From: a virus
Virus record (IMG/VR): IMGVR_UViG_3300012201_000008
Coordinates: 1-28,775 of that record
DNA length: 28,775 nt
Reading direction: 5' to 3' (one strand)
Of this stretch, positions 1,790 through 28,211 are shown piece by piece. Made by a program: the position numbers and the translations under genes. Position 1 is the stretch's first letter; each line of letters starts with the position of its first letter. The notes beneath the pieces were generated by a model. It ran no database searches. It was not told the DNA's origin and saw only the letters and a list, made by a program, of their open reading frames with translations.

Positions 1790-2053
1790 GTGTATAACAG
1801 AACGTTCATCTTAAACAGAGAAAAACTATACAAAGCGGTTGACTCAAAGAGACGACAAGATAAAATCTCGTGGGATAGACTCTCAAAGAGAATAGGTGTT
1901 CGTAGCACAAACCAATTTGGTGCCCTCTTAACAAACAAAAGAGATGTTTGGTCAAATATTGTCGTCTCTTGCCTTATGTACCTAAAACGACCACTCGAAG
2001 ATTTTGTAGAAACGGAAGAGGTGAAAACTAACGGTGGCAACTCCACTGAATGA
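1790..2053 (+). CDS. XRE/Cro-type helix-turn-helix protein, 87 aa
   Basis: One helix-turn-helix domain fills most of the protein: ISWDRLSKRIGVRSTNQFGALL corresponds to helices 2 and 3 of the lambda-repressor-like fold, followed by a fourth helix and the typical ending RPLEDFV. It probably binds DNA as a small regulator. GTG 1790 is chosen because AGAGG lies just upstream; GTG 1778 is also in frame. Its 3' end overlaps the start of the ParB-like gene by 20 bases. Which promoter it regulates cannot be seen. Confidence 0.7.
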   Translation: MYNRTFILNREKLYKAVDSKRRQDKISWDRLSKRIGVRSTNQFGALLTNKRDVWSNIVVSCLMYLKRPLEDFVETEEVKTNGGNSTE

Positions 2054-3278
2054 AATAAGGAAAATTGCTGCCCGTGCCCGCAGGATCGGTTGGGAAGTTG
2101 AAACCAGTCACGGTGCGCAAGCTTGGGTTCATCGAATCACTGCTCCCGAATGCGATGATGCGTATTGTACTCACCGGGTTCAGCTTCACGGAACTCCTTC
2201 TGACCGTTATTGGAAGGAGAACGTCATTCGAGAGCTAAACAGGCATGGCTTCGAAGAAGCAGAAAATGCCTTCCTTCAGCAGGAAGAGGAAGCTCGGAGG
2301 GCAGCGATTGACGAAGACAGACGAAAGAATGACATTGCCCTAGCTAAGGCTCAGCAGCGTTTGGTATCCGTCACGAAGGCATCAGGACCATTTGGTCCAC
2401 AGATTGCCGACATTGGTTGGCTTTTCCAAACTCATGAGCTTCCTGAAACTCGACGGGTATTGGTTCCACCGGAACTTTCTCGGAAGATCCTAGACGAACT
2501 TAACACCGCGAATCGGCCCCTACGCATTGCGAGAACTAGATATTGGTCAAATATCATGGCCAAGAAAAAGTTCAAGTATACCCACCAGGGTATCGCCTTT
2601 AATACTCTTGGTCAGCTCCAAGACGGTCAGCATCGGCTTGCGGCAAGCTTAGCACAGCAATACACGTTAGATATTAACGTGACCGTAGGTATGCCGGTCG
2701 AAAACTTCGAAGACATTGACACTGGATTCGGAAGAACCGGCACCGACACCTTCTCCGTGTGGGGCAAGGATTTTCCTGCTACCTATGCGGCTGGAACACG
2801 ACTCGTCGCGGCCTATGACAAATATGGGTCAGAGTTGAGATTAGGACTCAGGCAAAGGATTTCCAATGCTGAGTTGAGGGTGAAAGCTACCGAGTATGGT
2901 ACGGCGCTTGAGCAAGCTGTGGCCTTAGCCAGAGAAACCACTAGCAAACGTGATGGGCTAAGAATTTCCCCCAACGCGCTTACTGCTGCTATCTATCTCA
3001 TCAGCCGAAACCTGCCGGAAAATGACAGTCGGGTAATGGAATTCCTTCGTGGTTATTCAGAGGGAACATACCTGAATGCTGGAGATTCAAGAATCGCACT
3101 TCGATCGTTCTCAGCTAACGTGAGCGTCGATAAGCGAAGAATCCCAGTAGAGGACCAGCTTGCGGTAATCATCAAGGCTTGGAATGCATTCGCCAATGGT
3201 AGAGCAATTTCTCAGCTCACCATCCGTAAGGATGAAATGATGCCGAAGCCGTTTGTTCCTAAGCCCAGTGAAGAGTAA
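2034..3278 (+). CDS. ParB/sulfiredoxin-fold-like phage protein, 414 aa
   Basis: N-terminal 85 residues form a separate domain with conserved His and Cys (ECDDAYCTHRVQLHGTPS) that looks like a small nucleic-acid-binding unit. It is followed by a highly charged helix rich in Glu/Arg (about residues 82-110). The main domain has LQDGQHRLAASL at about residue 196, the signature turn of ParB/Srx-type nucleotide-binding or nuclease domains. The rest is helical. Similar proteins are common in actinophage early regions, but the biochemical role is unknown; an NTP-dependent DNA-binding or nuclease role is inference. GTG start after GGAAGAGG at 2014-2021. Confidence 0.65.
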   Translation: MATPLNEIRKIAARARRIGWEVETSHGAQAWVHRITAPECDDAYCTHRVQLHGTPSDRYWKENVIRELNRHGFEEAENAFLQQEEEARRAAIDEDRRKNDIALAKAQQRLVSVTKASGPFGPQIADIGWLFQTHELPETRRVLVPPELSRKILDELNTANRPLRIARTRYWSNIMAKKKFKYTHQGIAFNTLGQLQDGQHRLAASLAQQYTLDINVTVGMPVENFEDIDTGFGRTGTDTFSVWGKDFPATYAAGTRLVAAYDKYGSELRLGLRQRISNAELRVKATEYGTALEQAVALARETTSKRDGLRISPNALTAAIYLISRNLPENDSRVMEFLRGYSEGTYLNAGDSRIALRSFSANVSVDKRRIPVEDQLAVIIKAWNAFANGRAISQLTIRKDEMMPKPFVPKPSEE

Positions 3279-3376: not shown

Positions 3377-3449
3377 CCCCGTGTATCTCAATGGATAGAG
3401 AAACGAGCTTCTAACTCGTTGGTTGCAGGTTCGAGTCCTGTCACGGGGG
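3377..3449 (+). tRNA. tRNA-Arg(TCT)
   Basis: Acceptor stem CCCCGTG (3377-3383) pairs with CACGGGG (3442-3448), discriminator G3449. The anticodon stem ACGAG/CTCGT (3403-3407/3415-3419) carries loop CTTCTAA with anticodon TCT at 3410-3412. The T arm has GGTTCGAGTCC. It decodes AGA (and AGG by wobble), a codon used often in this AT-leaning window (for example in the Pol, primase and helicase genes) and rare in high-G+C actinobacteria. Confidence 0.95.
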
Positions 3450-5160: not shown

Positions 5161-7560
5161 TTGCCAGAACTCTTTGAATTCCAAAAACAAGCAGTGGAAT
5201 TTCTTCTCGACAAAAGATCTTGTCTTATTGGCGACGATATGGGTTTGGGCAAGACCGCGCAAGCTATCATTCTTGACAAAGAGCGAAGACTAAAACAACC
5301 AAACATAGTCAAAACTCCAAAGACGTTGGTAGTAACATACCTCGGCATCTTTTCTTCCTGGGAAAACCATTTCAAAGACTGGAATCCTGAACTTAGAGTA
5401 AAAACCATTGATAATAAAAACAGAGATCCATTTCTAAAAGCGTTAGCGTCTGACGATGCGGACGTTTTTATCTGTCATTGGCAGGTCTTGCGTATCATTG
5501 AAGATGAACTGGCAAGAATCAAATGGTTCCACCTTATATATGATGAATGTGTAGTTCCTGGAACAAGAATTTCAATACCCAATGGAGAAAAAAACATAGA
5601 GGATTTGGAAATTGGAGATGTAATATACGGTTATGATCATAAAGCCAACAAGGTTGTAGAGACTGAAGTAAAACAAACATTCACTCGCAATACAACCTCC
5701 AAACTATACAACATTAATAATGTTATCATGACCGGAAACCACCCTGTTTACACTAAAGAGTCGAAATATATCAATGCTTCTGCTCTGGACAGCATGTCCT
5801 ACACGCTGCTAAGATTAGAAGATGACCAAGAAAAAAACAGCAATGGTAGACAAGATCTGCGAGTGGTGCAACAAACCTTATCAGTGCGAGAGGTACCTAA
5901 AAGACAAGCGTCGATATTGCAGCAAGATATGCTCAAACCAATGGAAGGCTCAAGTATACCACAAAGAAGTGCCGCGAAGGAATACAGAAAAGCAGATTGC
6001 CGCCGCGAAAGCCAATTTGGAAAAGACTCGTCAAAGCCCGGCGATGTTGGAATATTTGCATTCAGATCGAAACCCATTCAACGATCCAGCGGTGAGGGCA
6101 AAGGCTCATCTAACACTAGCACAACAAGGATACAAACACCTAACTGGTGGAAATGGAAGCCTGTCAGTACCTCAATTACTACTTTACACCCAATTGCAGT
6201 TATTAACCAAACTAACTTGGTCGCTAGAGATTCCAGCAAAAACAATTGGGAAACACTATGTGATAGACATTGCCCACGTAGACTTGAAAATAGCAATAGA
6301 GGTGGATGGGAATTCTCACCTAACCAAAGAGCGTCAACGAATAGATCAAGAAAAGGACAAGTTTTTAACTTCAACTGGCTGGACAATTTTCCGATTTACC
6401 AACTCGGAGGTTCTAAAGGATTCGACGTTGTGTGTGAAAAAGGTACACGAGTGTATAATATCGAAACTGGAACAGGAAACTATTTTGCGAATGGAATCTT
6501 AGTCCATAACTGTCACGGACTACAAAACCGGAAATCTAAGCAAACAAAGTCAGCTAAGGAATTTAAGTCAGTATACAAGACTGGTCTCTCTGGTACTCCA
6601 GCATTTGACAAACCAGATGATTTGTGGTCAATCCTTAATTGGCTTTACCCAGATCATTGGTCTTCATACTGGCGATACTACAACAGACACATTATTTACA
6701 CAGACTATAATGGTTATCGGACAATAGTCGGTGTAGCACATGCTAACGAACTTCAACAACAGATGTCAGGCTTCTATCTTCGACGAAAGAAGGAAGAAGT
6801 GCTTCTAGACTTACCAGAAAAATATAACACCAAAATTGAAGTAGACTTACACCCAAAGCAAGCTCGCGCGTACGAAAGTATGAGACGTGACTTAGTAGCT
6901 TGGGTGGGTGAACATGAAGATGAGCCGATTTCTGCCCCAATTGTTATAGCACAACTTACTAGACTTCAACAATTTTCGGACGCATATGGGGAAATTTTAA
7001 CAGTTAAAAAACGTCGTCGGGCTCAGAGCGAATTAGAACGACAAAAATCTGGTGAGTGGGTACCATACGAGGAACAACAAATGTTCCTCACCGAACCGTC
7101 TACTAAGCTTGACGCATTAATCCAAACAATCGAATCCACAGTAGAGCAAGTGGTGGTATTTAGTCAATTCTCCCAAGTGATAAAGCTATTGGGGAAGAGG
7201 TTAGAGAGTGGCCACATTTCACACGGCCTATTCATCGGTGAGACATCCACTTCGGATAGGAAGCGTATCATCGATGAGTTTCAATCCGGAAAACTTAAGG
7301 TATTCGCCGGTACGATTGCGGCTGGCGGTACGGGCATTACGCTTACGGCCGCGTCGACAGTTGTATTCATTGATCGCTCGTGGTCTGCTGCAAACAATCT
7401 TCAAGCGGAAGATAGATTACATAGAATTGGACAGAAGAATGCCGTCCAGGTTATTGATATTATCTCTAGAGGAACAATTGACGCAAAACGCCATGAAGAA
7501 ATTGATCTAAAATGGAGTTGGATTAAACAGCTACTTGGTGAGGATGATGAAGATGACTAA
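5161..7560 (+). CDS. SNF2-family DNA helicase/translocase, intein-containing precursor, 799 aa
   Basis: A dsDNA-translocating ATPase of the SNF2/SF2 type. N-extein: FQKQAVEFLL, Walker A GDDMGLGKT (24-32), motif Ia (LVVTYLGIFSSW), and the first half of Walker B, IYDE (to residue 129). Residues 130-450 are an intein. C-extein resumes with CHGLQN, giving DECH after splicing, then motif III LSGTPAF, VVFSQFSQ, motif V AAGGTGITLT and motif VI DRLHRIGQ. The spliced protein is 478 aa, a compact SNF2 core without accessory domains, as usual in phages. The start is TTG 5161, with AGAGG at 5146-5150. It probably supports replication or recombination. The ATPase cannot be active before splicing because the intein splits Walker B. 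Confidence 0.93.
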   Translation: MPELFEFQKQAVEFLLDKRSCLIGDDMGLGKTAQAIILDKERRLKQPNIVKTPKTLVVTYLGIFSSWENHFKDWNPELRVKTIDNKNRDPFLKALASDDADVFICHWQVLRIIEDELARIKWFHLIYDECVVPGTRISIPNGEKNIEDLEIGDVIYGYDHKANKVVETEVKQTFTRNTTSKLYNINNVIMTGNHPVYTKESKYINASALDSMSYTLLRLEDDQEKNSNGRQDLRVVQQTLSVREVPKRQASILQQDMLKPMEGSSIPQRSAAKEYRKADCRRESQFGKDSSKPGDVGIFAFRSKPIQRSSGEGKGSSNTSTTRIQTPNWWKWKPVSTSITTLHPIAVINQTNLVARDSSKNNWETLCDRHCPRRLENSNRGGWEFSPNQRASTNRSRKGQVFNFNWLDNFPIYQLGGSKGFDVVCEKGTRVYNIETGTGNYFANGILVHNCHGLQNRKSKQTKSAKEFKSVYKTGLSGTPAFDKPDDLWSILNWLYPDHWSSYWRYYNRHIIYTDYNGYRTIVGVAHANELQQQMSGFYLRRKKEEVLLDLPEKYNTKIEVDLHPKQARAYESMRRDLVAWVGEHEDEPISAPIVIAQLTRLQQFSDAYGEILTVKKRRRAQSELERQKSGEWVPYEEQQMFLTEPSTKLDALIQTIESTVEQVVVFSQFSQVIKLLGKRLESGHISHGLFIGETSTSDRKRIIDEFQSGKLKVFAGTIAAGGTGITLTAASTVVFIDRSWSAANNLQAEDRLHRIGQKNAVQVIDIISRGTIDAKRHEEIDLKWSWIKQLLGEDDEDD
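5548..6510 (+). mobile_element. Class 1 intein in the helicase Walker B box, with out-of-frame nuclease ORF
   Basis: A 321-residue intein in the helicase frame. It begins with Cys1 (CVVPGTRISIPNG, block A), has block B MTGNHPVYT with the TxxH motif, and ends with block F RVYNIETGTGNYFAN and block G ILVHN before Cys+1. These are all the residues needed for standard class 1 splicing. Between the end of the N-splicing domain (about base 5825) and block F (about 6430) the helicase frame is open but encodes a polar Ser/Arg/Asn-rich, feature-poor stretch of roughly 195 residues, with no endonuclease motif. The nuclease lies in the +1 frame. So the element is a splicing domain in one frame and a homing-type nuclease in another. 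Confidence 0.9.
5822..6502 (+). CDS. Zinc-finger plus Vsr/DUF559-like homing endonuclease nested in the intein, 226 aa
   Basis: Encoded in the +1 frame relative to the helicase. N-terminal zinc finger C13-x2-C16, C22, C33-x3-C37. A segment near residues 84-97 (NPFNDPAVRAKAHL) resembles DNA-binding modules of phage homing endonucleases. The C-terminal nuclease has VIDIAHVD (D149), EVDGNSH (E160, D162, H166) and RIDQEKDKFL (D175, D179), then GWTIFRFTNSEVL: the layout of Vsr/DUF559-type nucleases, including the EDxHD homing group. The frame has a TAG at 5816-5818 just upstream, so ATG 5822 (or ATG 5843) is the earliest start. No good ribosome site is visible. The TAG at 6500-6502 is 8 bases before the intein end, so its last helix shares DNA with the splicing blocks F and G. 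Its likely role is spreading the intein. Confidence 0.85.
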   Translation: MTKKKTAMVDKICEWCNKPYQCERYLKDKRRYCSKICSNQWKAQVYHKEVPRRNTEKQIAAAKANLEKTRQSPAMLEYLHSDRNPFNDPAVRAKAHLTLAQQGYKHLTGGNGSLSVPQLLLYTQLQLLTKLTWSLEIPAKTIGKHYVIDIAHVDLKIAIEVDGNSHLTKERQRIDQEKDKFLTSTGWTIFRFTNSEVLKDSTLCVKKVHECIISKLEQETILRMES

Positions 7561-9131: not shown

Positions 9132-9354
9132 CGACCAAAAACAAACCACTGAATCAGAATGGTATACCCCCAAAGATGTAGGAAAATTGTTTGGTCTTGA
9201 TCCCAAAACAATAATTAGGTGGGATATTACTGGAAAACTTAAAGCACATAAAGTTACAGTAATTCGTACCCTTGGTGGGCATAGAAGATATTCCAAAGAA
9301 GATATAGACAGGCTATATCAAGAACTTAACCCAAAGGACAAGAGTGGATCTTAA
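9124..9354 (+). CDS. BldC/MerR-type DNA-binding protein, 76 aa
   Basis: Winged helix-turn-helix of the BldC/excisionase type: YTPKDVGKLFGLDPKTIIRW is the helix-turn-helix and IRTLGGHRRYSKEDI the conserved wing with its GGHRRY signature. BldC-like proteins are short actinobacterial regulators binding direct repeats; phage versions also serve as excisionases. No integrase is present in this window, so a transcriptional role is the safer inference. ATG overlaps the previous gene's end. Confidence 0.85.
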   Translation: MSDDQKQTTESEWYTPKDVGKLFGLDPKTIIRWDITGKLKAHKVTVIRTLGGHRRYSKEDIDRLYQELNPKDKSGS

Positions 9355-11587
9355 AGATTACATCGACAGAAATTTGTGTCATAGCATCCACACCTCTGAG
9401 CGTCGATCGCGACGTTCATGTCCACGTCGCCATGCCTGGGCATACAGAGACATGTATTATCCGAAGGTTACACCAGGTCAATTAGAGTTTGGTGTCTGGT
9501 TCCACCGGGCAATGGAGATATTCTACGAACCATCTACCTGGGGGAAGGATCCAGAAACACAAAAATTCCTTGCTCTCAAAGCATTTCGTGATGCTGCCGA
9601 CCATGGCCTCAAGGAATATCGCAGACTTAATGGAGAGCCAGAAGTTGATGTCCTAAACGATTACAAAGATCGACTTCAGCTCGGCCTAAACATGTTTAGA
9701 CATTATGCCGAAAATGTTAGCCCACAATACGACCAGAATCTAACTCCTGTCGAGGTAGAAGTACCGTTTGAGGTTCCTATCCTTTCTCCACAGGGGGAGG
9801 GCATCTGGTGTAAATGTGAACAATGTTGGAAAAAGTTTAGAGTATGGTGCTACAAACAGAATAATCATGGATCATTTAAAAACACACTTGGTGGTTCAGT
9901 CCGAGTCACAGACAATAATGCCACAAAATATTGGCTAGGTTTGCCCGTAACGTACGGCGGACGACTAGATATGTTGGCTAAAGACAATTTAGATAGATAC
10001 TGGATCACTGACTGGAAGCAACAACCTTTGGATTCTCCAGTGCTGACGCCCAATGGTTGGGTCAAAATGGGTGAGTTAGATGTTGGTGATTATGTAATTG
10101 GTAGCGATGGGAAACCTACCAAGGTAATTGGTGTTTATCCAAAAGGTCAACACGAGGTCTATGAAGTAGTATTCTATGATAAGACTAAAGTAGAATGCTC
10201 CAAAGATCATGCTTGGTTTGTGAAAGATATCTTTGGTAAATTCAATGTTAAAGAAGCTCAAGAGATTCTAAATAAGGCAAATTATCAGCGATACTCAGTA
10301 CAACTTCCCACCAGTCCTATAGAATTCAATAACCAAAATGACTTTCTATCTATGCACCCATATGTGCTAGGATCGCTTATTGGTGACGGCTACTTTGGTG
10401 GACATACTTTAGCTTATGCATCTCAGTCAGGTGAAACTGTAGATCTTCTCAAACATTTCGCCGAAGACTCAGTTGATATTAGAGACGATAGAGAATCAAA
10501 TGGAACTCGTTGGATAATAAGTGGACCTTGGAAAGGTCAACTAAAGGAACTTGGGCTCTGGGGTAAGCTATCAGGAGAAAAGTTTATACCAAAACAATAC
10601 CTGTTTGCTTCTGTGCCAGAAAGAATAAATCTTTTAAGAGGTCTAGCGGATACAGATGGTAATACCGGAATACTTCGAATCACTACAACCAGTCAACGGC
10701 TTGCAAATGACATCAGACACCTGATTTGGTCGCTCGGTGGACTTGCAAGTTTAAACGTTTCACAGGAACGATTACATCAAAATGGTCACACTATTAACGT
10801 TCCACAATATGGTATTAACTATTGGATTCCGGAATGGATTGAACCAAATCTCCTCATAAGAAAAAGAATCGGAAGACAAAGTAGAACAAAAGGATTTCAC
10901 AGAGGAATTAAGGAAGTTCGCGCAACTGGCTCAATGAAGGAGATGCAGTGTATCCGCGTTGAAGCAAAAGACAACCTCTATATGACAAATAATTTTATTC
11001 TTACTCATAATACTACTGCTCGAATGTTAAACGAAGGAACCGAGGAAGCTTTTCTTGAACTTGACGATCAGATTTCTAGTTATTGCTGGTCTTTATCTAA
11101 AGTTGGGATACCTGTCGCTGGTTTTATTTACGTTGAAATTAAGAAGGCTTACCCTCAACCTCCAAAACAACTAGCAAGACCATATAAAGGACGATCGTAT
11201 TCCACTGATAAACAAAATCTCACTACTTACAAACAATTCACCGAGTTCATTAAGGAACATGATCAGCAGGCTTTGGTGGACGGAGTTTATGATGAATATC
11301 TCAATTGGTTAAAAAACGATGGACCAAAATTCCACCAACGCCATCAAATCCACAAAAATGACTACGAGATCGACCAGATCGGAAGAAATATATATTTAGA
11401 AGCACTTGACATGATTGAGCGACCTAGAGATTATCCGACACCTGGCAGGTTTTCTTGTCCAACTTGTTTGTATCGTCAACCTTGTCTAGGCAAGAATCAA
11501 GGGGAACATTATGAATATACTCTCCAGACTCTTTTCGAAAAGAAAGAAAAACACTATTGGGAAGACCGAGAACCAAGCACAGAATGA
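9344..11587 (+). CDS. RecB/Cas4-type PD-(D/E)XK nuclease, intein-containing precursor, 747 aa
   Basis: Likely DNA exonuclease acting with the recombination proteins downstream. The N-extein has SCPRRHAWAYRD with the first cluster cysteine, then FGVWFHRAMEIFY (the conserved His helix), a Cys-rich insertion (CKCEQCWKKF), and the catalytic GGRLDML. The DWK of the DxK active site ends at residue 225, where an intein (226-556) is inserted; the C-extein resumes TTARMLN. The C-terminus has CPTCLYRQPC, giving with the N-terminal Cys the four ligands of a Cas4/AddB-type Fe-S cluster. The mature protein is 416 aa. GTG start after AAAGGA at 9334-9339, overlapping the BldC-like gene. Splicing is needed to join the catalytic Lys with its flanking helix. 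Confidence 0.9.
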   Translation: MDLKDYIDRNLCHSIHTSERRSRRSCPRRHAWAYRDMYYPKVTPGQLEFGVWFHRAMEIFYEPSTWGKDPETQKFLALKAFRDAADHGLKEYRRLNGEPEVDVLNDYKDRLQLGLNMFRHYAENVSPQYDQNLTPVEVEVPFEVPILSPQGEGIWCKCEQCWKKFRVWCYKQNNHGSFKNTLGGSVRVTDNNATKYWLGLPVTYGGRLDMLAKDNLDRYWITDWKQQPLDSPVLTPNGWVKMGELDVGDYVIGSDGKPTKVIGVYPKGQHEVYEVVFYDKTKVECSKDHAWFVKDIFGKFNVKEAQEILNKANYQRYSVQLPTSPIEFNNQNDFLSMHPYVLGSLIGDGYFGGHTLAYASQSGETVDLLKHFAEDSVDIRDDRESNGTRWIISGPWKGQLKELGLWGKLSGEKFIPKQYLFASVPERINLLRGLADTDGNTGILRITTTSQRLANDIRHLIWSLGGLASLNVSQERLHQNGHTINVPQYGINYWIPEWIEPNLLIRKRIGRQSRTKGFHRGIKEVRATGSMKEMQCIRVEAKDNLYMTNNFILTHNTTARMLNEGTEEAFLELDDQISSYCWSLSKVGIPVAGFIYVEIKKAYPQPPKQLARPYKGRSYSTDKQNLTTYKQFTEFIKEHDQQALVDGVYDEYLNWLKNDGPKFHQRHQIHKNDYEIDQIGRNIYLEALDMIERPRDYPTPGRFSCPTCLYRQPCLGKNQGEHYEYTLQTLFEKKEKHYWEDREPSTE
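10019..11011 (+). mobile_element. Class 3 (WCT) intein with LAGLIDADG endonuclease in the nuclease active site
   Basis: 331-residue intein starting with Gln (QQPLDSPVLTPNGW), so the usual Cys/Ser/Thr nucleophile at position 1 is missing. It carries the three residues that define class 3: Trp66 in block B (SKDHAWFV, two after His64), Cys311 at block F position 4 (MQCIRV) and Thr329 before His330-Asn331 (ILTHN). The +1 residue is Thr. Class 3 inteins use the block F Cys as first nucleophile. A LAGLIDADG homing endonuclease is present: LGSLIGDGYFGG and LLRGLADTDG keep both acidic motif residues, so it may be active. Confidence 0.92.
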
Positions 11588-17370: not shown

Positions 17371-20300
17371 ATGGAACGTAAGCATCCTTTGGCAGAGTGC
17401 GAGAAGTGCCCTTTTGGGCAACTTGGTGGGTTCGTGCCCACCCTTAACCCGCATCCATCAGGAAAAATCGCCGTAATTGGAGAAGCCCCTGGTGCATATG
17501 AGGCTGCTTACAAAATTCCCTTCACCGGACCATCTGGAGACTTATTAAACCAGGTCTTGCACCATCATGACATTAATCGTGAAGATATTATGATTTCCAA
17601 CGTCTGCTTGTGCCGCCCTAAAGAAAATGAAGATCCACCCAAATCTGCCATCGCGGCCTGTTCGGGCAGGCTCCACAGGGAGCTGGCAGAAAGCGGTGTT
17701 GATACAATTATCGCAGTTGGTAAGGCAGCAGCACATGAGCTACTTGATGATAAAACAACAATGCGAAAGATGCGAATCGGACCTAAAAAGCCATATAAAT
17801 TTGACCACAATATTGGAGTAGTCGCGACGTGGCATCCTGCGTACTGTTTACGGACACCGGATGCCTTTCCGGACCTTGTCTCCGATATTGGAAAAGTTAA
17901 AAAGGATGTATTGAATGATTGGATTGAACCTCAATACCGAGTATATGACGATCCTGCTAATGCCGAAAGAGTTATCCGTGAGCTGGGATCGCGATTTGAA
18001 CGTTTCGTGCTCGACATTGAATGCGGTGCTGAAAAAGATTCCAGCTTTATCCATCCAAGCGACTGGCCTCTGCTCTGCCTGGGTATCGCATTTAGCTCAA
18101 AGCAAGCTGTGGTACTTGGCGAGAACGCCATTAACCATCCCCGCGTTGGAGCTGTACTCAGGGAAATTTTACCAAGAGTTAAGCTTGTTGCTCACAATGG
18201 AAAGTTTGACCTTGCGGGACTTCGTAACGTGGCGGGTCCACAGAAATTGTGGTTTGATACGATGCTTGCCTCCTATAGCCTTAATGAGCGTCCTGGACAC
18301 CATGGACTCAAACCACTCTCTATAGAGAAACTAGGGGCACCAGACTATGAGCAAGCAATCAGAAAATATATACCAAGGTCAGGGAACTATGCAGACATCC
18401 CAAGGGCAGTTTTATACAAATACAATGCATACGACGTTGTGTGCACCTGGGATCTTATGGAACAATTTGAGCAGGAAATGCTGCCTATTGATAGGCGGAA
18501 GCATAACTTCTTGGTCGATGCCGCTAACGTCCTCATCGATCTTGATACTGCCGGCTTAACCTTTGATGTTGAATACAACAAAGAACTTCACGTCCGATTT
18601 GAAGAAGAACTCCATGACATTGAATTAAAAATGAAAGAGATAATTGGTCGTGATATTAATCCAAGATCTGTGCCGCAAGTTCAAGCTTACTATAAAGACC
18701 AAAATCTTATTCTTCCGACGACTAATGCAGACTTTCTCAAAGAATTGTCTGAGGTCATCGACGGAGAACCACTCGCGTTCACTGAGCAACTGTTGCTCCA
18801 CCGGCGGCGAGCGAAGTTATTTGGCACATACGTCAAAGGACTTGCCAAACGTGTGTATAAAGACAAAGTATATACAACTTACCTATTGCATGGAACAACA
18901 TCCGGACGTCTTTCTTCACGAGATCCAAATTTGCAAAATATTTGTTTTTCTGATGATACTGAAATTCTTACTGATAATGGTTGGAAACTATTCTCTAAAC
19001 TGAATAAAACTGAATTGGTAGCTCAATGGTCAGGAGATGGAACAATAAAATTTGTTCAACCAGAAGAATATATTGAAAAAGAATATGAAGGTACAATGAT
19101 TCATGCAACTGCTCAAGGTATGAATCTATTAATGACTCCAGAGCATAGGGCATTGTCGCTTCAAAGAAATGGAAAATTGGTAATTGAACAAGCAAAAACA
19201 TGGCTAAAGTATGGAAATTATGATAAACTAGTATATAGAAAACTGGTAAGGGGAGGCATAAAAATTGGAGGTCATAAGCTGACTGAACAGGAAAAAATTA
19301 GCTTAGAAAAAGCTATAGCGTTTCAGGCAGATGGTACATGGAAAATCGATTGGAAAAATAAATGCAGTATAAGAGTCACATCAATAAGAAAAAGGCAACA
19401 ACTTGCTAAATTGTTTGAAAATGAAGTAAGACATTACAAGAATTGTGATACAATAGTATTAGAACATTCAGATTTTGATTTGAATTTATGGCTAAATCTT
19501 CCAGAAAAAACCTTTAAACCAAGTAAGATCATTGACCTTGACTTTGAAAGCCTAGAATTTTTTCTGAAATGTATAATGCGTTGGGACGGCGATTTTACTC
19601 GGGAAATGACTTACCTTCAACACGAAGATAGAAAACTATCAGTCGATGTGGTACAAATTGCTGCTTTATTGACAAACAAAAGCACATTATGGTATCAGAA
19701 ATCACAAGAATATCACACTGTAAATATACACAGACTTCCAGCAAGATGGTTTAGTTATACCAACATTAAAGAAGTATCATATATAGGCAAAGTTTATTGT
19801 GTAAACGTACCGTCTGGTTTCATTGTTGTCCGACGTAATGGAATGGCACTAGTATCTGGAAATTGTCGAGAAAAATATATCCGTAACCAGTTCACCGCAG
19901 AGAATAGTGACAACGTACTCGTACAATTAGATTTCAAACAAGCCGAAGGTCGTGTCATTGCCACCCTTGCTCAGGAAGAATACCTGCGCAATATATTCGC
20001 TGATCCTGACCGTGACCTATTCAACGAAATGTGTGATGATATTTTTGGAAAACAAAAGTGGAATAAAGAGAACCGCGTCGCGATGAAATCGATTTTCTAT
20101 GGTTGTGTACCACTTAATGTTAAAATCTTAACAAGAAGGGGATGGCTAAAGCACGACCAAGTTATAGCTGGTGAGGATGAAACTATTGGGTATGACCAAA
20201 TACTGGGAAAATCTAGATGGACAAAAATCACTGATGTTGTAAGGTATGATAATGTAGAAACAACAAAATTCTATTCCAGTAATATAGCGTTTGAAACAAC

Positions 20301-21594
20301 AGCTAATCACAGATGGTATGGACAAAATAGGAGATCAATAAATGGTAAAAGATTCTGGAAGAATGAATTCTTCACAACAGATAGCATTAAACATGATACA
20401 CGAATAATGCTTGGTGCAGAATTTGACTCTGACACAAAACTTAACATAACGGATCAGGAAGCAGCAATACTTGGATGGGCTTATAGCGACGGTTCTGTGA
20501 AAATGTCCGAGTTGTCTGGTATCACTGGGCAAGGAAGAGATGGTCGAAGAAGACAAACAATTGTAAATATTTGTCAAGATAAAAAGAGTCCATTTGTGAA
20601 AGACATAGATAGGCTTCTTGTTGGTTATAAACACTTTAGATATGAATATGAAAATAACAATCAGGTGTGGTGGAAATTACCATCTGCTGTTGGTCGGGAC
20701 CTTTTAACTAGGGCAAACCTCATTGACACAAATAAACCAATAACATTTGCTTTAACAATGTCAAACTCACAGCGCAAATCATTCTTTGATAGTGTCATAA
20801 AGGCAGAAGGGAATAAGTACGAAGCAAGAAAAATAGCTCAAAGTGAAGGATGGCTTAATGAAGTCATAAAGATTATAGGATATTTAAATGGTTTTCTTGT
20901 TAAAACGTACAAAGATGACAGTTCTTTAACTCAGATCAAAGATCATTACAAATATTGGCTAGCAAGACCAATTCTCACAGGTCAAGAAATTCGAAAAACT
21001 TCTGGAGGAAAGAAGGACGTCTGGTGTGTGAAAACAGAACTCGGAACGTGGACAATGCATCAAAATGGATTAACAGTTCTAACAGGCAACAGCGCCTACG
21101 GCCGAGGAGCTTTGAGCATTACCAAAGAACTCAATCTGCAAGGCTTAACCATAACAGAGCACGAAACTCGGACATTGATGAGCGAATTCAATTCGCTGAT
21201 ACCAAACGTGAAAACTTGGCAAAAAGAGATAAGACGGAGAGTTCTTAACGGTGAAGACCTCATTACTCCGTATGGTAGAAGAAGAAGCTTCTGGCTTATC
21301 ACTGACAGAAATCGAGAGGATGTCATCAATGAAGCTTTGTCCTTCTTGCCGCAGAGCATTGCTTCAGACATTACCCTTACCGCACTTATCAATGTGTACC
21401 CAAAAATGTCTGGATTTGCTACTATGCGATTGTCTATTCATGATGCACTTGTCTTCGAATGTGCAAAAGATAGAGTTCAAGAGGCTTCCAATATGGTTAA
21501 AAACGAAATGATTAAGGCAGCAGAAGAGTTTACTTCATATGTTCAATTTGCTGTAGACGTTACTACAGGTTATCGTTGGGGAGAATTAGGTTAA
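17371..21594 (+). CDS. Uracil-DNA-glycosylase/family A DNA polymerase fusion with two inteins, 1407 aa
   Basis: Residues 1-185: Fe-S UDG-like domain (family 4 type) with CEKC near residue 10, GEAPGAYEA, NVCLCRP, ACSGRL and ATWHPAYCLR; all four cluster cysteines are kept, the last Asp of motif 1 is Ala. Residues 210-370: 3'-5' exonuclease with FVLDIEC, AHNGKFDL and YNAYDV. Then the polymerase: GRLSSRDPNLQNI, motif A LVQLDFKQAEGRV, O-helix motif B RVAMKSIFYG|SAYG and motif C SIHDALVFE. Inteins occupy residues 525-831 and 912-1240. Mature length is 771 aa. A UDG-like domain on a family A polymerase is known from SPO1-type phages. ATG 17371 follows GGAG at 17361. This is the replicative polymerase. 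Confidence 0.93.
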   Translation: MERKHPLAECEKCPFGQLGGFVPTLNPHPSGKIAVIGEAPGAYEAAYKIPFTGPSGDLLNQVLHHHDINREDIMISNVCLCRPKENEDPPKSAIAACSGRLHRELAESGVDTIIAVGKAAAHELLDDKTTMRKMRIGPKKPYKFDHNIGVVATWHPAYCLRTPDAFPDLVSDIGKVKKDVLNDWIEPQYRVYDDPANAERVIRELGSRFERFVLDIECGAEKDSSFIHPSDWPLLCLGIAFSSKQAVVLGENAINHPRVGAVLREILPRVKLVAHNGKFDLAGLRNVAGPQKLWFDTMLASYSLNERPGHHGLKPLSIEKLGAPDYEQAIRKYIPRSGNYADIPRAVLYKYNAYDVVCTWDLMEQFEQEMLPIDRRKHNFLVDAANVLIDLDTAGLTFDVEYNKELHVRFEEELHDIELKMKEIIGRDINPRSVPQVQAYYKDQNLILPTTNADFLKELSEVIDGEPLAFTEQLLLHRRRAKLFGTYVKGLAKRVYKDKVYTTYLLHGTTSGRLSSRDPNLQNICFSDDTEILTDNGWKLFSKLNKTELVAQWSGDGTIKFVQPEEYIEKEYEGTMIHATAQGMNLLMTPEHRALSLQRNGKLVIEQAKTWLKYGNYDKLVYRKLVRGGIKIGGHKLTEQEKISLEKAIAFQADGTWKIDWKNKCSIRVTSIRKRQQLAKLFENEVRHYKNCDTIVLEHSDFDLNLWLNLPEKTFKPSKIIDLDFESLEFFLKCIMRWDGDFTREMTYLQHEDRKLSVDVVQIAALLTNKSTLWYQKSQEYHTVNIHRLPARWFSYTNIKEVSYIGKVYCVNVPSGFIVVRRNGMALVSGNCREKYIRNQFTAENSDNVLVQLDFKQAEGRVIATLAQEEYLRNIFADPDRDLFNEMCDDIFGKQKWNKENRVAMKSIFYGCVPLNVKILTRRGWLKHDQVIAGEDETIGYDQILGKSRWTKITDVVRYDNVETTKFYSSNIAFETTANHRWYGQNRRSINGKRFWKNEFFTTDSIKHDTRIMLGAEFDSDTKLNITDQEAAILGWAYSDGSVKMSELSGITGQGRDGRRRQTIVNICQDKKSPFVKDIDRLLVGYKHFRYEYENNNQVWWKLPSAVGRDLLTRANLIDTNKPITFALTMSNSQRKSFFDSVIKAEGNKYEARKIAQSEGWLNEVIKIIGYLNGFLVKTYKDDSSLTQIKDHYKYWLARPILTGQEIRKTSGGKKDVWCVKTELGTWTMHQNGLTVLTGNSAYGRGALSITKELNLQGLTITEHETRTLMSEFNSLIPNVKTWQKEIRRRVLNGEDLITPYGRRRSFWLITDRNREDVINEALSFLPQSIASDITLTALINVYPKMSGFATMRLSIHDALVFECAKDRVQEASNMVKNEMIKAAEEFTSYVQFAVDVTTGYRWGELG
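18943..19863 (+). mobile_element. Polymerase intein 1 (NLQNI motif), LAGLIDADG type
   Basis: 307-residue class 1 intein: Cys1 (CFSDDTEILTDNGW), block B LLMTPEHRAL, block F KVYCVNV with Cys at position 4, and end LVSGN followed by Cys+1. The penultimate residue is Gly, not the usual His. Two LAGLIDADG-like motifs (AIAFQADGTW; KCIMRWDGDF) remain. Local base composition is much more AT-rich than the surrounding extein: by hand 17 of 60 G+C at 18961-19020 against 33 of 60 at 18061-18120, a mark of recent or independent origin. Confidence 0.9.
20104..21090 (+). mobile_element. Polymerase intein 2 (O-helix, motif B), LAGLIDADG type
   Basis: 329-residue intein starting Cys1 (CVPLNVKILTRRGW), with block B TTANHRWYG, block F VWCVKT and end LTVLTGN before Ser+1. 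Trp71, Cys308 and Thr327 occupy the positions of the class 3 Trp-Cys-Thr triplet although Cys1 is kept; the penultimate residue is Gly. LAGLIDADG-like motifs are ILGWAYSDGS and SVIKAEGNK, the second with Glu for Asp. The insertion splits the O helix that binds the incoming nucleotide. Confidence 0.9.
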
Positions 21595-26205: not shown

Positions 26206-26398
26206 TGCCGAAAAGATAGCAAAGGCTATCTATGACTCTCAACAAGCATTGGTAGCAATTTACTCTCAATTGGAGCATAACTCACGACCTTGGGAAAAAT
26301 TAATGAACTTTGAAAAAGATATAATGATAGCAGCTATAACAGGTCTCATCAATGCCGATATAATTCAAGAAGGTTCTAACCTTAAACACATTACTTAA
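26198..26398 (+). CDS. Hypothetical helical protein, 66 aa
   Basis: Unrecognised; helical throughout (AEKIAKAIYDSQQALVAIY; DIMIAAITGLINADI). Last gene of the rightward arm. Its stop overlaps the end of the leftward structural gene by 8 bases, and no bidirectional terminator hairpin is evident at the junction. Confidence 0.6.
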   Translation: MNNAEKIAKAIYDSQQALVAIYSQLEHNSRPWEKLMNFEKDIMIAAITGLINADIIQEGSNLKHIT

Positions 26399-28211
26399 TT
26401 ATTTTACCTGCTATGTCAGCGTTAACAGATGTTGTTTGTATACTAGGATTTTGAGTTCTACTGACGACATCGGAGTTTACAGTTCTACCGGTAATATCAG
26501 TATTTACCTTAACTCCTACAGTCACATTTATGTTCGCTGTCCGATAAATATTTGATATTCCAAAAGCTTCGCCAGAAGATATGCTGAATGGAAAAACCTG
26601 CAAACCTAGAGAAATAGAAGGTTCACCAAAAGATTCAATAGATTTTATTCCAACTGGTGCAATGGTTACTGCACTAACAATTATTGATGCATTACCAATT
26701 TGTTCAGAACTTTGTATTCCATGTGGCTGAACTACGTAAGAAGTAGAAGTATATCCAACTCGCTCTTGTGTTGAGATACCAAATGGTGAAATTGTGGTTA
26801 TTATGGAAACTGATGTAACACCAAAAACTTCCTGAGAATTTATTCCAACAGGTACTATTGTAACGGCACCTGGCGTGACGGAGGGATTACTAAATGTCTC
26901 AGTGGGAGATATACCAACGGGAGCGATATTTAGAGTTATTCCAGGGATTCCTAGACGCTCTTGAGTTGAGATCCCGTATGGGCTTATCGTCGATACATTC
27001 ATTATCGACGGAGAACCAAAGGTTTCCTGAGACTGAATACCAACAGGAGAAACAGTTAATGTTGTTTGAATGGTCCCAAATTGCTCAGAGCTGGATATAC
27101 CCTTTGGAAGAAGAGTAAATGAAACAGCCGGAGATCCTAGAGCTTCCTGAGACGGAATACCAGTGGGAAGAATTGCCTGACTTACTTGTGCGGTGCCAAT
27201 ATTTTCTGTGGATGAGATACCAGTGGGAGTTAGGTTTAACGTTACAACTGGATTCCCAAAAGATTCAGAAGTATTTAATCCAGTCGGCGATATGTTAAGT
27301 GTTATTAATTGTGTACCAAAATTTTCCTGTGATGTAGCTCCTAGTGGCGATATAACCTGTGCTATGTTTGGATTACCAAATTGCTCTTGAGTTGTGATAC
27401 CAAGCGGGTTAATAGTTTGATCGACGACAGTGACGTTCGGATTCGACCAGTTTTGATATAATGAAGTAATTAACTCCATTAACAGGTCTGGTGGCCAGAT
27501 TTGCGAATATGACGCTTGAGGTTGAGTGCTAGTAGCAACAGGCAATACTTCGGCATAAACCCAAGAGAGATTCGTTGAGGTACCTGGAAGTGTAACATTA
27601 AGAGTATTGCTAGAACCATTTGAATCATCGGCTGTTGTCCGTCGTACTACACCGTGGGTAATTTGAACATCATTCGCTGATCCTACTAGCGTGCATCCCG
27701 TGCCGGCAGTCATTGCAGCTTGAGCATCCCAGTCGGTCGCGAAGATTACTCCCCAACCACCGGTAGCACTTGCGGTATACGACTGAGCAATACTGGCAGC
27801 GCTTGTCGAACCATCCTTACCATGAGCACCGATTTGTGTGGTGGAGTCCTGTCCAGTAAATACGATTACCGATAATCCTCCACCTTGGAGGCTAGTACCG
27901 GCCCCGGATGTGACAGTAACGGTCATCGCGGCGGAAGTGCCAACCGTTGCCCACCATGAAGCAGCCTGGCCATTAGCGGTTGGTGAGGTGGCATGTGTTT
28001 TGTGGTCAAGTAGATTGTATGTTAGGTGTGCACCGAGATTATCAGTGATACTAGGTGCTGATGGATTATCACCAGCCTGGGTATTCCACATCCAACCTAT
28101 TAATAAAAGACTTCCGGCCGGAGGGGTAAAGCTGGCTGTAGTGACGGTAGTTGTAGAGTTGTTGGTAACGGTAGCAATCGCAGGAGTGCTGCCATCAATA
28201 GCAAGCGCCAC
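26391..28211 (-). CDS. Phage structural protein with fourteen tandem 20-23-residue repeats, 606 aa
   Basis: Residues 1-230: beta-rich virion-type domain (SLLLIGWMWNTQAGDNPSAP; LSVIVFTGQDSTT; WGVIFATDWDA) as found in tail-associated or capsid-decoration proteins. A linker (IWPPDLLMELITSLYQNW) leads to residues 267-558, made of 14 repeats with consensus I-x-P-x-G-I-x-S-x-E-x-F-G-x-P. The C-terminal 48 residues have smaller repeats (ITGRTVNSDVVSRTQ). It is probably a tail or surface protein exposed on the virion. GTG 28211 with GGTGAG upstream on the minus strand. Confidence 0.8.
   Translation of the reverse strand: MALAIDGSTPAIATVTNNSTTTVTTASFTPPAGSLLLIGWMWNTQAGDNPSAPSITDNLGAHLTYNLLDHKTHATSPTANGQAASWWATVGTSAAMTVTVTSGAGTSLQGGGLSVIVFTGQDSTTQIGAHGKDGSTSAASIAQSYTASATGGWGVIFATDWDAQAAMTAGTGCTLVGSANDVQITHGVVRRTTADDSNGSSNTLNVTLPGTSTNLSWVYAEVLPVATSTQPQASYSQIWPPDLLMELITSLYQNWSNPNVTVVDQTINPLGITTQEQFGNPNIAQVISPLGATSQENFGTQLITLNISPTGLNTSESFGNPVVTLNLTPTGISSTENIGTAQVSQAILPTGIPSQEALGSPAVSFTLLPKGISSSEQFGTIQTTLTVSPVGIQSQETFGSPSIMNVSTISPYGISTQERLGIPGITLNIAPVGISPTETFSNPSVTPGAVTIVPVGINSQEVFGVTSVSIITTISPFGISTQERVGYTSTSYVVQPHGIQSSEQIGNASIIVSAVTIAPVGIKSIESFGEPSISLGLQVFPFSISSGEAFGISNIYRTANINVTVGVKVNTDITGRTVNSDVVSRTQNPSIQTTSVNADIAGKIIK
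26538..27413 (-). repeat. Tandem amino-acid repeat array, 14 units
   Basis: Fourteen consecutive units (292 residues; nine of 20, three of 22, two of 23) within the structural protein. Each has P-x-G-I/L-x-S/T-x-E-x-F/L/I-G. At the DNA level they are diverged, so the array is old or shaped by selection on protein rather than by recent duplication. Confidence 0.85.

Follow-up and report, generated by a model that had tools for sequence, protein, structure and literature searches.

Can one stretch of phage DNA hold a working intein in one reading frame and a nuclease in another, and what would such a layout be for? The question is raised by the IMG/VR virus record IMGVR_UViG_3300012201_000008, a fragment of 28,775 bases that was analysed at its full length (hereafter the window). 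A helicase gene on its plus strand is interrupted by an intein, and the same bases, read one base on, encode a nuclease. An earlier reading of the sequence by a model (the original prediction) had described a complete class 1 intein at 5548-6510 in an unbroken helicase frame, together with a zinc-finger plus Vsr/DUF559-like nuclease at 5822-6502 in the +1 frame, ending 8 bases before the intein end. Our analysis upholds these features and their coordinates, and places them in a real, widespread and mobile family of overlapping intein-nuclease elements. The observation is due neither to chance nor to sequencing error. The element is very probably a mobile intein with two overlapping genes, one giving a spliced helicase and the other a separately started homing nuclease.

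The intein and the nuclease

The host gene encodes a SNF2-type phage helicase of 799 amino acids (5161..7560, +), which matches Pfam SNF2-rel_dom (1.6e-36) and Helicase_C (1.4e-16) and has a TTG start preceded by a good Shine-Dalgarno sequence (energy -7.9). It is split in frame by an insert of 321 amino acids (5548..6510, +) within helicase motif II (Walker B). The DE of the motif lies at 5542..5547 and the CH at 6511-6516 (+); the insertion site is DE/CH and the junctions read DE/C...HN/CH, with a slash marking the point of insertion. The helicase frame contains no stop codon across the whole insert, which carries Cys1, a block B TxxH motif, a terminal HN and a +1 Cys, in the form CVVPG...TGNH...HN/C. 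The intein ends are matched by TIGR01443 (E 3.2e-6) and, below its cut-off, by TIGR01445. The N-terminal splicing half (residues 1-97; 5548..5838, +) was predicted with a local distance difference test score (pLDDT) mostly of 88-98, dropping at the end of the stretch, and the C-terminal half (residues 273-321; 6364..6510, +), in which the TIGR01443 match lies, reaches 94-98 over its last 21 residues. The linker joining them in the intein frame (residues 98-272; 5839..6363, +) was predicted to be unstructured, with pLDDT mostly <55 and no secondary structure. The predicted HINT fold of the two halves matches solved inteins and BIL domains (Foldseek), and signature residues and modelled fold together place the insert among the class 1 inteins. 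Removal of the insert as an RNA intron might be considered, as homing nucleases with a frame of their own are generally known to be typical of introns. However, the intein residues are conserved, the frame is unbroken and a HINT fold is predicted, and an Rfam scan of the window at the gathering threshold returned tRNAs only and no intron; we regard this alternative as negligible.

The putative homing endonuclease gene (5822..6502, +) lies +1 to the helicase and encodes 226 amino acids, with an alternative ATG at 5843; its stop codon falls 8 nt before the intein end. The product matches Pfam DUF559 above the cut-off (E 2.3e-13). It combines a zinc-finger-like region (5858..5932, +; C13, C16, C33 and C37), the cysteines of which are conserved in relatives, with a catalytic ExDGxxH...D motif (6299..6346, +; E160, D162, H166 and D175). 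Across 41 nuclease sequences D162, G163, H166 and D175 are invariant and E160 is kept in at least 90%, the ExDGxxH motif is kept in 139 of 141 loci, and the window nuclease retains every residue that is invariant in the family. The nuclease model (mean pLDDT 88.1) has its best solved matches in the DUF559 protein 3hrl, for which there is also a sequence profile match (E 4e-10), and in the catalytic domain of I-Bth0305I (PDB 3r3p), both with probability 1.0. Against 3r3p the template modelling (TM) score is 0.77 by target, with 16% identity over the aligned part; I-Bth0305I is the closest solved homing enzyme. The modelled catalytic fold and the acidic/histidine motif assign the nuclease to the EDxHD/Vsr-like enzymes. 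I-Bth0305I, which the model resembles in its catalytic fold, is encoded in a group I intron and not within an intein.

Relatives and their phase

Relatives were sought without regard to frame, by tblastn of the nuclease against phages and with profiles run over viral contigs and over a genome set holding a single representative of each species, and hidden Markov models (HMMs) of the intein halves, applied to the nuclease loci, gave the phase. A single-sequence search of viral contigs with the window nuclease gave no matches, whereas tblastn and the profile searches succeeded; a search of plasmids returned free-standing DUF559 genes or partial matches only. With tblastn, 43 phage records were matched, mostly within genes annotated as helicase. 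Eight of these regions were examined closely, from Vibrio phages CP-T1, K391, 1.194.O, 1.088.O, 159E43-1b and 104E43.1, Pseudomonas phage MR14 and Corynebacterium phage phi673; two Escherichia and one Leptolyngbya phage matches were left out. All eight have an intein at DE/C...HN/CH and a nuclease +1 to the helicase, and the fetched records annotate one open reading frame (ORF) only at this locus.

The searches yielded about 190 distinct nuclease loci, of which about 140 have recognisable intein halves. By HMM, the nuclease is +1 to the N half in 137 of 138 loci and +1 to the C half in 139 of 140, with a single locus in frame in each comparison. About 130 loci are contiguous and overlapping, five are fractured and one distant relative is in frame; the two-frame design of the window recurs in more than 100 other phage and bacterial loci. 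Homologous inteins sharing the frame offset, which the original prediction had proposed to look for, were therefore found in all but one of about 140 cases, and relatives show no compensating indels of the kind that would place the nuclease in frame. The nuclease stops inside the intein in 107 of 110 loci, and the median distance from the start of the intein to that of the nuclease is 259 nt. Among 89 non-redundant loci, Cys1 and a +1 Cys or Ser are present in all 89, HN in 81 and the insertion site DE/CH in 63. Judged by the C-extein, the host protein matches Helicase_C in 69 of 92 loci, SNF2 in 14 and the clamp-loader family DNA_pol3_delta2 in 12. In L020, L030, L103, L108, L123 and others, the intein lies at DE/CH or EE/CH of clamp-loader (DnaX/delta'-like) ATPases, that is, at the same motif as the helicase site in a different ATPase family.

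These relatives bear on the suspicion of a sequencing or assembly error, under which the nuclease would truly be in frame, as in ordinary inteins. A homopolymer near 5830 and the origin of the window, a fragment from a virus contig collection, could encourage such a suspicion. However, the same phase is found in independently sequenced cultured phages (CP-T1, phi673, MR14 and the Vibrio phages) and in about 130 loci, and since the N and C halves already share a frame, two compensating errors would be needed per locus. An error is thus practically out of the question.

Selection in the two frames

The original prediction had argued that both frames look selected, and had put the chance of such an open stretch at (61/64)^226. 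We replaced this estimate by synonymous-codon shuffles and a count of risky positions, and the conclusion that the open frame is not a product of chance was retained. When the synonymous codons of the window nuclease were shuffled, with protein and codon usage unchanged, the helicase frame acquired 12 stops on average, and not one of 20000 shuffles left it open. The remaining forward frame (+2) has 22 stops over the nuclease stretch. Two further inteins or intein-like ORFs of the window, both in frame and located in the DNA polymerase A ORF and the 9344-11587 ORF, have 23-33 stops per shifted frame, which is the look of an ordinary in-frame insertion. In the +1 layout, a stop in the intein frame requires a nuclease codon ending in T followed by one beginning with AA, AG or GA; a position was counted as risky where the context is stop-prone and a synonym ending in T is available. 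T-ending codons occupy none of the 4029 risky positions in 90 contiguous, non-redundant loci, with about 1356 expected, compared with 31.8% elsewhere. In two fractured loci they occupy 38 of 120 risky positions.

Substitution rates per codon, taken from 12 close pairs, were obtained for nuclease codon positions 1, 2 and 3. They are 0.198, 0.162 and 0.384 in the linker; the third position is the fastest, and therefore the nuclease is the conserved protein there. In the C-terminal overlap they are 0.130, 0.184 and 0.195; the third-position rate is halved relative to the linker, and therefore both proteins are constrained there. The claim of selection on both frames thus holds fully only in the C-terminal overlap. 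Over the linker, selection on the helicase frame acts to keep stops out and not on the amino acids encoded, and this predicted unstructured segment is best read as a by-product of the nuclease gene.

The nuclease frame is also maintained across the family. Broken nuclease frames in relatives, which would have refuted the original prediction, were not found: none of 141 is broken after the start codon and two are shortened (L016 and L119). In L016, the helicase of which is 67% identical to that of the window, the intein is shortened to 192 amino acids and both frames survive the deletion. Breaks that had seemed present in L079, L080, L106 and L222 were only apparent, the stops lying upstream of the start codon. 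The nuclease frame of the window phage might nevertheless be an unexpressed relic, the intein alone mattering, as its weak start region and the existence of shortened nucleases could indicate. The window copy, however, has all the invariant residues, a full-length ORF and a confidently predicted fold, and this intact state is shared by its relatives, so that we consider a relic quite unlikely.

A double-coded motif in the C-terminal overlap

Within the overlap, a double-coded segment (6377..6397, +) gives GWTIFRF in the nuclease and the strand LDNFPI in the intein. In the family consensus, the nuclease motif LGW[KT]V[LF]RF is read one base apart from the intein strand RV[ED]SVEI. Whatever the preceding base, TG from the Trp codon completes an NTG codon (Val, Leu or Met), and Trp-Lys gives Glu and Trp-Thr gives Asp. 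Free-standing relatives that have this nuclease motif number 14, and in none of them does the shadow frame hold the strict intein motif or Glu at its fifth place, as against 85 of 125 overlapping loci. The match between the two motifs is therefore not automatic. We suggest that the shared bases explain the constant phase and the retention of the nuclease. It would be held in place because the bases of its C-terminal motif also encode an essential strand of the intein, and because any single-base indel in the nuclease would break the helicase too.

Probable translation of the nuclease

Shine-Dalgarno sites at the first ATGs of the nucleases have a mean energy of -4.5 kcal/mol and are stronger than those at the remaining out-of-frame ATGs (mean -2.5 kcal/mol; p 1e-7), and near-perfect sites precede the nuclease in L110, L036, L055, L089 and L101. 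Of 92 loci, half have a stop in the nuclease frame within the 30 nt before its first ATG (3 nt before it in the window), and these nearby stops favour an internal start over a frameshift. Ribosomal frameshifting, or polymerase slippage, near the end of the N half would produce a fusion of the N-intein with the nuclease; an A run at about 5830-5837, near the nuclease start, and the lack of a good ribosome-binding site in the window would fit such an event. However, at half of the loci a shift would have hardly any space between the upstream stop and the ATG, many loci offer start codons with strong Shine-Dalgarno sites, and frameshifting by -1 at A AAA AAC would lead into the wrong frame. We thus hold a fusion to be unlikely. 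Separate production of an out-of-frame Vsr/EDxHD nuclease, as the original prediction had proposed, is supported by the +1 phase in about 140 loci, by the avoidance of stops and by the structure predictions.

Mobility and empty sites

Between the Vibrio phages of the pairs L005/L169 and L008/L169, the DNA of intein plus nuclease shows identities of 94.4% and 95.8% and the exteins of 76-80%, with an abrupt drop at both intein edges. In the pair L005/L008 the edges are less sharp (97.4% for intein plus nuclease vs 82% for the C-extein). Empty sites are also found. The spliced helicase of phi673 is 98.9% identical to that of phi674, which has DE/VHH instead of DE/CHH; other empty sites are those of 234P10 (93.6%), 1.024.O (89.7%) and 142E35-1 (85.1%), and L171, L172 and L173, relatives of the window helicase at 70-74% protein identity, have empty sites as well. 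Distances between inteins, nucleases and exteins are positively correlated for all three pairs, a pattern that does not separate vertical descent from joint transfer. The differences in identity and the empty sites demonstrate lateral transfer of intein and nuclease, which the nuclease may drive by homing.

A nuclease of this kind could also be a resident phage function, acting in Vsr-like repair, in degradation of host DNA or in exclusion of rival phages. DUF559 domains are often free-standing (L122-L168), and phage homing nucleases are generally known to be able to cause marker exclusion. The nuclease is, however, nearly always within the intein or adjoining a helicase (L095), intein and nuclease have been sharply transferred between diverged helicases, empty sites exist, and the closest solved homing enzyme is I-Bth0305I. 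A resident function is therefore very unlikely.

Proposed mechanism

We propose that the element works as two genes in one mRNA. A ribosome on the helicase mRNA would read straight across the intein, and the HINT halves (residues 1-97 and 273-321) would splice out with the unstructured linker, restoring motif II as DECH. The amino acids of the linker would be irrelevant, provided that no stop occurs, because the linker is spliced away. A second start, inside the same mRNA and close to where the N half ends, would open translation in the +1 frame, and the free EDxHD/Vsr-like zinc-finger nuclease so made would cut the intein-less motif II DNA of other phages. Repair of the cut would then copy the element into the intein-less site.

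Several points weigh against this model. The main gap is the weak ribosome-binding site of the window nuclease, as there is no convincing Shine-Dalgarno sequence at 5822 or 5843, whereas most other genes of the window have one. The window copy has no close relative, the nearest nuclease being about 40% identical (the shortened copy L016 aside), and selection was measured on the relatives rather than on the window copy. Splicing, the internal translation start, cleavage and homing are steps that we infer, homing solely from sequence patterns.

For the family as a whole, we lean towards a further interpretation, namely that a widespread and probably old intein family has overprinted a homing endonuclease on its own splicing domain. 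Simple indels could then not remove the nuclease without killing the host gene, splicing would be the protein-level counterpart of an intron hosting a separate gene, and the element could turn fractured by gaining stops.

Related and known arrangements

The five fractured loci (L087, L112, L185, L187 and L227) have this intein and nuclease with the phase unchanged; the stop that closes the N half overlaps the start of the nuclease, which is followed by a C half with possible new ATG starts. They form one fully supported clade, in a tree with a midpoint root only and many weak branches. These comparisons support a link between the overlapping inteins and the published fractured-gene arrangement, with overlap being much the commoner state. 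The original prediction had seen the window as a contiguous relative or intermediate of fractured genes; the kinship is borne out by the five fractured relatives, and with the root uncertain the change may have run from overlap to fractured genes or the reverse. Dassa and colleagues, in 2009, reportedly described fractured genes in which split inteins are accompanied by EDxHD nucleases. As that arrangement is cited, an EDxHD/Vsr-like nuclease in a frame of its own sits between the two halves of an intein, and this is exactly the form of five members of the family studied here, whereas about 130 members have contiguous cis-splicing frames on which the nuclease is overprinted instead of lying between two genes. 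In the window, the helicase ORF shows no stop and restart around the nuclease.

Canonical inteins with a homing endonuclease (LAGLIDADG or HNH, in frame) resemble the element in that the HINT domain is interrupted by the endonuclease at the usual place between its halves. They differ in that the endonuclease here is a separate protein in another frame, +1 in the window, and does not share frame and polypeptide with the splicing domains. The only in-frame case is the distant L230 (2683-3807), with a distant Vsr-like nuclease in its intein; its host gene also differs, with an NCRC motif, and apparently encodes a phage head protein. Free-standing forms were observed as well. The nuclease of L095 (2977-3600), from a Spirochaetaceae bin, is the nearest relative of that of the overlapping L021 and lies just upstream of a helicase with an intein-less motif II (DESHH). 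L046 and L066 have free-standing nucleases of the same group, near the window clade, between other phage genes, and in these the intein was either lost or never present.

The nearest described case is the ShiLan-domain insertion of mycobacteriophage methylases, which contains an out-of-frame HNH nuclease; in the view of Arsenault et al. (2025, PMC11855218), the insertion is not an intein. It likewise is a mobile insertion read through in the host frame, with an out-of-frame homing-type nuclease with zinc fingers. It differs in having an HNH nuclease, no splicing domains and a frame described as the third (PMC11855218), whereas the window element combines a full HINT intein with an EDxHD/Vsr-like nuclease in the +1 frame, the two sharing conserved motifs. 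The helicase intein of phi673 is the same kind of element. It has been reported as a putative intein that is absent from phi674, and the passages of that paper concerned with the intein do not mention the hidden nuclease, which is not annotated as a gene there (PMC6132909). In the openly accessible literature, the ShiLan insertion was the only case found of a nuclease in another frame, and within that literature the original claim that no such intein had been described holds.

Other features of the window

A DNA polymerase A ORF (17371-21594) has a UDG-superfamily domain at its start and an apparent intein at about residues 525-833, with no open reading in the shifted frames. The ORF at 9344-11587 has a PD-(D/E)XK exonuclease domain followed by weak matches to Hom_end_hint and LAGLIDADG_3, below the Pfam cut-offs, and looks like a third, in-frame intein of the same phage. 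Three tRNA genes lie at 493-641 and 3377-3449, and the long ORFs 2034-3278 and 26391-28211 (-) have no Pfam matches.

Implications

The element represents a real, little-noticed kind of selfish gene, in which the nuclease probably spreads the insert. Loss of the endonuclease is expected of inteins between one invasion and the next; with the nuclease locked to the host frame and none of 141 broken, the avoidance of endonuclease decay becomes directly testable. The family forms a bridge from contiguous inteins to split inteins and fractured genes, offers a naturally selected double-coding region in about 90 non-redundant sequences, and supplies new predicted cis- and trans-splicing inteins. Overlapping nuclease genes of this kind escape annotation, and the apparent target of this nuclease family is the set of conserved codons for motif II in helicases and clamp loaders.

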